64,000 bases of DNA from Micromonospora ferruginea (GTDB lineage Bacteria; Actinomycetota; Actinomycetes; Mycobacteriales; Micromonosporaceae), in assembly GCF_013694245.2 (NCBI RefSeq), contig NZ_CP059322.2:5897001-5961000 (forward strand). The letters are read 5' to 3'. How positions within the stretch are numbered: position 1 is the stretch's first letter; each line of letters opens with the position of its first letter. Below are positions 13,333 to 33,637 of this stretch, piece after piece. Below the pieces are notes generated by a model, which saw only the letters and a program-made list of their open reading frames with translations, searched no databases and was not told where the DNA came from. Made by a program: the position numbers and the translations under genes.

Positions 13333-13462
13333 CTCATCCAGAGGGGCTGAGGGATACGGCCCGACGACGCCCCGGCAACCACCCGCACGCTCGACGCCGA
13401 GCGCCCTGCGGGCAGGTGCCAATTCCGTCCCCGCCGCACCCGGCGATGCGGGGAAAGATGAG
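13333..13462 (+). promoter_or_regulatory. SAM-I (S-box) riboswitch upstream of thrC
   Basis: The segment matches the SAM-I consensus in order: P1 left arm CTCATC (13333-13338), AGAGG, CTGAGGGA, GGCCC, CCGGCAACC, a variable hairpin, GGTGCCAATTCC, and the P1 right arm GATGAG (13457-13462). The right arm runs into the Shine-Dalgarno GAGAGGA (13460-13466), 10 nt before the thrC start. Ligand-stabilised P1 would therefore hide the ribosome site, pointing to translational control by SAM. Confidence 0.93.
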
Positions 13463-13476
13463 AGGAACTCCTCGAC

Positions 13477-14766
13477 ATGACGTCGACGCTTCCCGCCGTC
13501 TCCGGCATCGACACCACCCGCAGCCCGGCCCGCGCCCTGGTCTGTCGCGCCTGTTCGGCGCGTTATCCGCTGGCCGCCCAGCACGCCTGCTACGAGTGTT
13601 TCGGCCCGCTGGAGGTCGACTACGACATCGCCGCGCTGGCCACCGTCACCCGGGAGCAGATCGAGGCCGGCCCGAACAGCATCTGGCGTTACGCCGCCCT
13701 GCTCCCGGCCGGTCAGGATCCGGCCACCCGGGTCACCCTCGACCCGGGGCTGACCCCGCTGGTCGCCGCCGGAAATCTCGCCGCCGAGCTGGGCCTCACC
13801 GGCCCGCTCTGGGTCAAGGACGACAGCGCCAACCCCACCCACTCGTTCAAGGACCGGGTGGTGTCGGTGGCGCTGACCGCCGCCCGGGCGCTCGGTTTCA
13901 CCCGCTACGCCTGCGCGTCCACCGGCAACCTGGCCAACTCGGTCGCCGCGCACGCCGCGCGCGCCGGCGTGCCGTCGGTGGTCTTCATCCCCAGCGACCT
14001 GGAGCAGGGCAAGGTCGTCACCACCGCGGTCTACGGCGGCGACCTGGTCGCCATCGACGGCTCGTACGACGACGTGAACCGGCTCTGCGGGGAGCTGGTG
14101 GAGACCGACGAGTTCGAGGACACCGCCTTCGTCAACGTCAACGTCCGGCCGTTCTACGCCGAGGGCTCCAAGACGCTCGGCTACGAGGTGGCCGAGCAGT
14201 TGGGCTGGCGGATCCCGGCCCAGGTGGTGATCCCGATGGCCAGCGGCGAACTGCTCACCAAGATCGACAAGGCGTTCACCGAGCTGGTCGAGATCGGGCT
14301 GGTGGAGGCGCCGGCCGGCGGCTGGAAGGTGTTCGGCGCCCAGTCCGCCGGGTGCAACCCGATCGCCACCGCGCTGCACGACGAGCGCGACACCATCGTC
14401 CCGGTCAAGCCCACCGGCATCGCCAAGTCGCTGAACATCGGCGACCCGGCCGCCGGCGTCTACGCGCTGGAGGCGGTCCGCCGTACCGGCGGCTGGATGG
14501 AGTACGCCGACGACGACGAGATCCGCGCCGGCATCCGGCTGCTGGCCCGGACCACGGGCGTGTTCGCGGAAACGGCGGGCGGCGTGACGGTGGCGGTCCT
14601 GCGGAAGCTGGTGGAGTCCGGCCGCCTCGACCCTACGGCGGAGACGGTGGTCTTCAACACCGGCGAGGGCCTGAAGACCCTCGACGCGGTGGCCGCCACC
14701 GCCGGCCCCACCCACCGCATCAAGCCCAACCTCCGAGCCGCCCGAGACGCCGGCCTCCTCTCCTAA
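13477..14766 (+). CDS. thrC: Threonine synthase
   Basis: A 429-residue PLP enzyme that converts O-phosphohomoserine to threonine. The Schiff-base lysine is Lys125 in NPTHSFKDR. CASTGNLANS binds the PLP phosphate region and ETAGGVTVAVLRKL is the typical C-terminal motif. An N-terminal four-Cys pair (Cys23, 26, 38, 41) looks like a zinc ribbon, as in many actinobacterial threonine synthases. It stands alone, away from hom and thrB, under a SAM-I riboswitch. The logic fits competition between threonine and methionine branches for phosphohomoserine, although SAM repression of thrC is unusual since SAM is normally an activator of the plant enzyme. The start is fixed by the riboswitch-linked ribosome site. 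Confidence 0.96.
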   Translation: MTSTLPAVSGIDTTRSPARALVCRACSARYPLAAQHACYECFGPLEVDYDIAALATVTREQIEAGPNSIWRYAALLPAGQDPATRVTLDPGLTPLVAAGNLAAELGLTGPLWVKDDSANPTHSFKDRVVSVALTAARALGFTRYACASTGNLANSVAAHAARAGVPSVVFIPSDLEQGKVVTTAVYGGDLVAIDGSYDDVNRLCGELVETDEFEDTAFVNVNVRPFYAEGSKTLGYEVAEQLGWRIPAQVVIPMASGELLTKIDKAFTELVEIGLVEAPAGGWKVFGAQSAGCNPIATALHDERDTIVPVKPTGIAKSLNIGDPAAGVYALEAVRRTGGWMEYADDDEIRAGIRLLARTTGVFAETAGGVTVAVLRKLVESGRLDPTAETVVFNTGEGLKTLDAVAATAGPTHRIKPNLRAARDAGLLS

Positions 14767-32209: not shown

Positions 32210-33472
32210 TCAACCGGGGAGGGTGGCCAGGGCGGTCAGGAGGGCGTCGACCTCACCGGCGGTGGTGCCCAGGCCGATGCTGGCGCGCAGCGCGGTCGGG
32301 GGCAGGTCGGTGCGGCCGGACCGGGCGGCGGCCTCGGTGAGCAGGCGGCGGGTCAGCGGGTGGGCGCAGAACAGGCCGTCCCGGACGCCGATCCGACGCC
32401 GGGCCAGGTGCGCGGCCACCTCGGCGGAGTCCCGCCCGGCCACCACGAAGCTGACGATGCCCACCCGGGGCGCGTCCGGGCCGAACGCGCGCAGCTCCAC
32501 CACGTCCGGCAGCGCGGCCAGGCCGGTGCGCAGCCGGGCCAGCAACGCCTGCTCCTCGGCGTGCAGCGCGGCCCGGTCCGCCGCGTCGAGCGCCGCGCCG
32601 ACCGCCGCGAGCGCCACCGCGCCGAGCAGGTTCGGGGTGCCGCCCTCGTGCCGGGCCGGTCCGGTCGTCCACCGGACGTCGTGGGTGGCCGCGCCGACGT
32701 GCGCGGTGGCGCCGCCGCCGGGCAGGTACGGCGGGGCCGCGTCCAGCCAGTCGGCGCGCCCGACCAGTACGCCCGCGCCGAACGGCGCGTACAGCTTGTG
32801 GCCGGAGAGCGCCACGTAGTCCAGGTCCGACGCGGTCACGTCGACCGGGGCGTGCGGGGCGAGCTGGGCGGCGTCCACCAGGATCCGCGCGCCGTACCGG
32901 TGGGCCACCCGGGCCAGCTCGGCCGCCGGCCAGCACTCGCCGGTCACATTGCTCGCCCCGGTGACGGCGACCAGCACCGGCAGGCCGGGCCGGGCGTCGC
33001 GGGCCAGCTCGCCCAGCGCCGCGTCGAGGGACCGGACCGCCCCGGCCGGGCTGTCCGGCACCGGCAGCCGCACCGAGCCGCGCGGCCAGGGCAGCAGGTT
33101 GGCGTGGTGCTCCCCGCCGAACGTGACCACCGTGGTGCCGGCCGGCAACGCCCGGGCCAGCAGGTTCACCGCGTCGGTGGTGTTCCGGGTGAAGATCACG
33201 TGGTCGGTGGGACGGGCGCCGAGGAAGTCCCCGACCGCCTGCCGGGCCCGCTCGTAGGCGAGCGTGCAGCGCCGCGACAGCGCGCCCGCGCCGCGGTGCA
33301 CGCTCGCGTACCAGGGCAGCAGTTCGGCCACCGCGTCCGCCGCGGCCCGCGCGCACGGCGCGCTGGCGGCGTGGTCCAGGTTGATCTCACCCGGTACGCC
33401 GAGCACGCCGAGCGGGTCCGGCCGGGCCGGCACGGGCAGCGTGGGCAGGGCGGGTACGAGGGTGACGGTCAT
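32210..33472 (-). CDS. Class V aminotransferase, cysteine desulfurase-like, under SAM-IV control
   Basis: A 420-residue PLP enzyme. PLP lysine is in LSGHKLYAPFGAGVLVG (Lys after GH). Other features: LDHAASAPC at the N-terminus, HHANLLPW, VTGASNVTGECWPAAELA, and DAAQLAPH. This resembles SufS/CsdA-type desulfurases, though the usual active-site Cys loop is not clear. The SAM-IV riboswitch in its leader argues for a role in sulfur or methionine metabolism rather than bulk iron-sulfur assembly. The ATG at 33472 has a GGAGG site 7-8 nt upstream. It converges with the FUSC gene. Confidence 0.9.
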   Translation of the reverse strand: MTVTLVPALPTLPVPARPDPLGVLGVPGEINLDHAASAPCARAAADAVAELLPWYASVHRGAGALSRRCTLAYERARQAVGDFLGARPTDHVIFTRNTTDAVNLLARALPAGTTVVTFGGEHHANLLPWPRGSVRLPVPDSPAGAVRSLDAALGELARDARPGLPVLVAVTGASNVTGECWPAAELARVAHRYGARILVDAAQLAPHAPVDVTASDLDYVALSGHKLYAPFGAGVLVGRADWLDAAPPYLPGGGATAHVGAATHDVRWTTGPARHEGGTPNLLGAVALAAVGAALDAADRAALHAEEQALLARLRTGLAALPDVVELRAFGPDAPRVGIVSFVVAGRDSAEVAAHLARRRIGVRDGLFCAHPLTRRLLTEAAARSGRTDLPPTALRASIGLGTTAGEVDALLTALATLPG

Positions 33473-33527
33473 GGCGAAGCCTCCCGGGGCACCGGGACCC
33501 CGGGTGTGGGTGACGGGGTCCGCGCTT

Positions 33528-33637
33528 GCCCAGCACGCGTGGCGGCGCTGGGCCCGGTCATCACCCGGGGCACCCCACCGCGAACTGACGAGGGTTGCCG
33601 GCCAGCAAGCCGGGGCTTGACGCTGGCGCTCGTGACC
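33528..33637 (-). promoter_or_regulatory. SAM-IV riboswitch
   Basis: Read on the minus strand, the segment begins GGTCACGAGCGCCAGCG, followed by CAAGCCCCGGCTTGCTGG, CCGGCAACCC, GCGGTGGGGTGCCCCGGG, then TGATGACC, which closes P1 with GGTCA. A further stem (33528-33534 with 33547-33553) follows P1, as in SAM-IV. The next hairpin, with GGACCCCG arms (33495-33521), lies before the ribosome site and may be the expression platform. This is the actinomycete SAM-IV architecture by memory of its consensus. Confidence 0.9.

Follow-up and report, generated by a model that had tools for sequence, protein, structure and literature searches.

A SAM-I riboswitch in Micromonospora ferruginea precedes a probable metM-type homocysteine synthase gene outside the canonical threonine synthase clade

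A SAM-I riboswitch in front of a gene that reads as threonine synthase raises the question of what such a control would regulate. The initial annotation of the window, by which we mean the whole analyzed stretch of 64,000 nt from Micromonospora ferruginea, described a complete SAM-I aptamer upstream of thrC, stressed that thrC is not a methionine gene, and pointed to a paradox: by turning off thrC, abundant SAM would drive phosphohomoserine toward methionine. The resolution of this paradox depends on the identity of the regulated gene, on the probable direction of control, and on the remaining methionine pathway of the same organism.

The window originates from a complete genome of 6.70 Mb, in which Rfam identifies a single SAM-I riboswitch, the one considered here. 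The aptamer is indeed complete. The match to RF00162 covers model positions 1-108 of 108; its 69.1 bits exceed the gathering score of 44.4 (E 4.7e-14, calculated over the whole window), and the conserved SAM-I core is present (GCAACC, GGTGCCAA, and GATGA). The right arm of P1, GATGAG, had been described as directly joined to the Shine-Dalgarno sequence; the contact is real, and the two elements in fact overlap rather than merely abut, since in GATGAGAGGA the final AG of P1 is the first AG of AGAGGA (Table 1). Folding of 180 nt of the leader gave P1-P4 as the minimum-energy structure, whereas a slightly different segment folded otherwise. In one minimum-energy fold, a local GAGG/CCTC hairpin covers the ribosome site; this hairpin is missing from some relatives and was set aside as a candidate regulatory element.

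Table 1. Positions of the riboswitches, associated genes, and their elements within the window.
Feature	Position	Strand	Basis or remark
SAM-I (S-box) riboswitch aptamer, P1-P4	13331..13464	+	Rfam RF00162
P1 5' arm, CTCATC	13333..13338	+	Sequence and RF00162 alignment
P1 3' arm, GATGAG, overlapping the ribosome site	13457..13462	+	Sequence and RF00162 alignment; equal geometry in Micromonosporaceae
Probable Shine-Dalgarno sequence, AGAGGA (core GAGG/AGGA)	13461..13466	+	Sequence; 10-11 nt 5' of ATG
metM-type gene, 429 aa, ThrC-family PLP enzyme	13477..14766	+	Profile, tree, alignment, neighbourhood
N-terminal cysteine cluster of MetM (C23, C26, C38, C41), probable zinc ribbon	13543..13599	+	Missing in the canonical ThrC set
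Lys125 of the SFKDR motif, common to ThrC	13849..13851	+	Alignment
SAM-IV, the second SAM riboswitch of the window	33517..33637	-	Rfam RF00634, 96.6 bits, E 2.2e-16
SufS-family cysteine desulfurase-like gene behind SAM-IV	32210..33472	-	TIGR01979, 247.7 bits, below the cut-off of 475.1

The protein encoded downstream of the aptamer matches the ThrC family profile TIGR00260 with 239 bits, which is above the thrC cut-off; automatic annotation would label the gene thrC, but it is not the canonical threonine synthase gene of this genome. Three full-length ThrC-like genes were found in the genome. One of them (L003) is the canonical thrC, located directly after the homoserine dehydrogenase gene hom, a place that the window gene does not occupy. 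In comparison with ThrC from M. tuberculosis, the L003 product scores 458 bits and the window protein 164 bits. The window protein is approximately 60% identical to metO-linked homologues in other actinomycetes and 34% identical to the ThrC of its own genome, and its closest named relatives, up to 98% identical, belong to Micromonospora. In the maximum-likelihood tree, canonical ThrC proteins form a clade of their own (99/98), and the carrier-linked genes group with the window gene in a second clade (100/98). The third ThrC-like gene (L002:1489-2652, + strand; 387 aa, NF006050, 583.9 bits), separated from the cysO cluster by some 15 kb, has a very long branch in the tree and is placed with little certainty. 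No riboswitch was found at either L002 or L003, and both were ruled out as riboswitch targets.

The alignment of the shared domain revealed 24 fixed substitutions relative to canonical ThrC, several of them around the PLP loops, whereas the lysine of the SFKDR motif, which we take to be the PLP-binding residue of the ThrC fold, is common to both. Outside Micromonosporaceae, a sulfur-carrier gene lies immediately downstream of metM in 27 of the 28 loci; the encoded carriers are small ThiS-type proteins, typically ending in AVAGG. This gene order is that of the published MetM/MetO system, in which MetM and thiocarboxylated MetO reportedly convert O-phosphohomoserine to homocysteine. Judging from the tree, sequence identity, and carrier linkage, the window gene is most likely a metM orthologue encoding an O-phosphohomoserine-dependent homocysteine synthase. 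The description of this locus as a riboswitch-controlled threonine synthase gene, and not a methionine gene, thus has to be revised, given that the genome encodes canonical ThrC elsewhere, next to hom and with no riboswitch upstream.

The proposed survey for SAM-I riboswitches linked to this thrC-like gene across Micromonosporaceae bore out the association. The leader was detected by pattern in all loci with readable upstream sequence (79/79), and Rfam confirmed it in 14/14 further loci of the family, as well as in 27 of the 28 loci from outside it. In Micromonosporaceae, P1 continues into the ribosome site, which reads GAGAGGA or GAGAAGGAG and lies shortly 5' of the ATG. The Shine-Dalgarno sequence AGAGGA is kept in this family, whereas L086, L212, L213, and L216 instead have AAGGAG right after P1. 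Among 26 diverse metM leaders, the covariation score of P1 and P2 was 0.261, compared with 0.110 for shuffled alignments; none of the 500 shuffles reached the observed value, and slid alignments gave at most 0.128. Compensatory two-sided changes were observed in seven P1/P2 pairs, with both sides of P1 pairs 3 and 4 altered in 8 and 10 of the 26 sequences, respectively. P1 covariation extends across the phylum, and the change of pairs on both sides indicates that the switch-bearing helix is maintained as a helix. The aptamers of four distant metM leaders (L111, L115, L117, and L126) match SAM-I as well; they are 87-100 nt long and apparently lack the normal P4.

The distance between P1 and the ATG in the window is 14 nt, which leaves no space for a terminator, and no terminator-like site was found on the + strand. 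This geometry makes translational OFF control likely, in agreement with the initial expectation that SAM lowers translation. A folding calculation that compared forced P1 with the free ensemble gave a mean unpaired value of the ribosome site of 0.35 and 0.41, respectively, with no clear change in accessibility. Given this short gap, we consider it very unlikely that the riboswitch acts here by transcription termination instead of translation, a mechanism for which distant relatives provide an argument: in these, the aptamer lies farther from metM, and terminator-like hairpins can occur in between (L113:1461-1481 and L122:1440-1464). The two arrangements suggest OFF control via two kinds of expression platform on one aptamer-gene pair.

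A separate strong ThrC match was found in 13 of the 14 MetM-bearing genomes searched (the window genome and 12 of the other 13). With a separate ThrC retained, a threonine role of MetM is not needed. A bifunctional enzyme that yields threonine as well as homocysteine, with the methionine share under SAM feedback, is likewise very unlikely in our view. Mixed activity has been described for a homologue (PMC12172450). A genome that is 99% complete (G274) also speaks for bifunctionality, as it contains a MetM-type gene (L111) with a riboswitch and a carrier and no canonical ThrC match; a bifunctional enzyme or an assembly gap is possible in this case, and some members of the clade may do both jobs.

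MetX and MetA provide the usual routes of homoserine activation. Neither enzyme was found in the genome (the best MetX match has 21 bits against a cut-off of 500), and MetM acting on O-phosphohomoserine would fill this gap. MetM and MetX occur together in 36 of the 396 genomes, which is moderately fewer than expected (odds ratio 0.46, p 0.0007, with kinship ignored), and a missing acyltransferase is thus not strictly defining for MetM. The genome contains four full-length relatives in the cystathionine/methionine PLP family; L088 matches the cystathionine gamma-synthase model above the cut-off, and L091 matches cystathionine gamma-lyase. The former match would allow homocysteine to be formed via a cystathionine gamma-synthase route, leaving the window gene accessory. 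We rate this route no higher than bifunctionality, since there is neither MetX nor MetA to supply acyl-homoserine, and no acyl-homoserine substrate for L088 or L091 is obvious in the genome; in addition, L088 adjoins L004, a putative cystathionine beta-synthase gene whose product is distantly related to the ThrC fold, which would suggest reverse transsulfuration. Least probable of all is that the window gene encodes a true second threonine synthase, with SAM repressing threonine synthesis for an unexplained reason: the ThrC family score above the curated cut-off and the in vitro threonine synthase activity of a cyanobacterial homologue, which is 51.6% identical to S. albulus MetM and whose main activities were those of a threonine synthase and deaminase (PMC12172450), stand against a separately present canonical hom-thrC, a clade linked to metO and preceded by SAM riboswitches throughout the phylum, and the 24 fixed substitutions, several of them around the PLP loops.

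We therefore hold it highly probable that the SAM-I riboswitch provides end-product feedback on MetM-dependent homocysteine synthesis, with SAM acting as an OFF signal via P1 and CysO as the probable sulfur donor; we infer the direction of control, its translational mechanism, and the role of CysO. MetM would take O-phosphohomoserine, an intermediate common with threonine synthesis, and add sulfur to produce homocysteine. When SAM is plentiful, the aptamer would close and P1 would form through GATGAG, blocking the overlapping ribosome site; less MetM would then be made, and phosphohomoserine would be left for the canonical ThrC, which is not riboswitch-controlled. When SAM is low, P1 would open and MetM would be translated. 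The supposed paradox stems from the thrC annotation and does not arise under this feedback, as SAM would repress the methionine branch itself, at the point where it has a metabolite in common with threonine synthesis.

The source of sulfur is the point at which Micromonosporaceae deviate from the published two-gene unit, which is incomplete in this family: no MetO-like gene was found near metM at 109 Micromonosporaceae loci (flanks of 1.5 to 6 kb, shorter at contig ends). Adjacency of metO is a trait of the two-gene unit and not of the enzyme. The sole close carrier in the window genome is CysO, encoded beside cysM and a mec-type gene (the mec-cysO-cysM cluster); besides it, the search of the genome for ThiS-family proteins found only ThiS and MoaD. 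A single close carrier was likewise found in genome G204. In one family (f4, taken as Streptomyces), all 11 genomes possess two close carriers, one located beside metM and the second, away from metM, matching CysO at 66-75%. As the only close carrier here, CysO may donate sulfur to MetM and CysM alike. The missing metO raises the question of whether cysteine and methionine synthesis share a carrier, and we give roughly even chances to a scenario in which Micromonosporaceae MetM lost MetO and shares CysO with CysM, while SAM sets the methionine share of sulfur via the riboswitch and perhaps also via SAM-IV. If true, one thiocarboxylated protein would split sulfur between cysteine and methionine.

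CysO of the window genome (L005:1429-1773, - strand) carries 23 residues beyond the expected C-terminal GG (AFGFAAAAAIASHAVSVRTAAVR). Such extensions vary in length in related genomes, and several of them include AFGFAAAAA. Given the residues past GG, CysO may require C-terminal cleavage, which the mec-type protease encoded beside it could perform. The SAM-IV riboswitch and the cysteine desulfurase-like gene form a unit (32210-33637, - strand) approximately 19 kb from metM, and this gene is a possible sulfur supplier for the carrier/MetM pathway.

According to the description of Hasebe 2024 (AEM 90:e01247-24) given in PMC12172450, the Streptomyces enzyme MetM synthesizes homocysteine, and in S. 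albulus a SAM riboswitch lies upstream of metM. With this pairing already reported in Streptomyces, the window system would be ordinary end-product feedback of a known type. No earlier description of the riboswitch-metM pairing in actinomycetes was found in PMC3766115, PMC12452182, and PMC13257386. A thrC label behind a SAM riboswitch most likely denotes metM, and such mislabels probably recur in many actinomycete genomes, for which the SAM riboswitch is a useful marker separating MetM from threonine synthase.

With canonical ThrC (PDB 2d1f) the window protein shares the fold family and the PLP lysine motif, whereas it differs in its score of only 164 bits, in the extra N-terminal cysteine domain, and in the location of its gene away from hom. 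In S. lividans TK24, a SAM (RF00162) leader precedes SLIV_16930-SLIV_16925, filed under threonine biosynthesis, and a SAM-IV riboswitch precedes a cysteine desulfurase gene (PMC8079986). The window has an equal riboswitch class before a gene of the same label, as well as the SAM-IV and cysteine desulfurase pairing, but apparently a single gene behind SAM-I, in contrast to the two-gene transcript of S. lividans. The met operon of Xanthomonas campestris, as outlined in PMC7270179, is similar in that SAM-I acts mainly on the translation of methionine genes; it differs in the regulated gene and also senses initiator tRNA. Another close parallel is metM-metO of S. albulus, which, as far as its description extends, shares with the window a ThrC-like enzyme, an upstream SAM riboswitch, and O-phosphohomoserine as the expected substrate, and which would belong to an orthologous clade, judging from carrier linkage. 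The difference lies in the carrier: metO adjoins metM in S. albulus, whereas Micromonosporaceae have no adjacent metO, and the window genome has no close carrier other than CysO.
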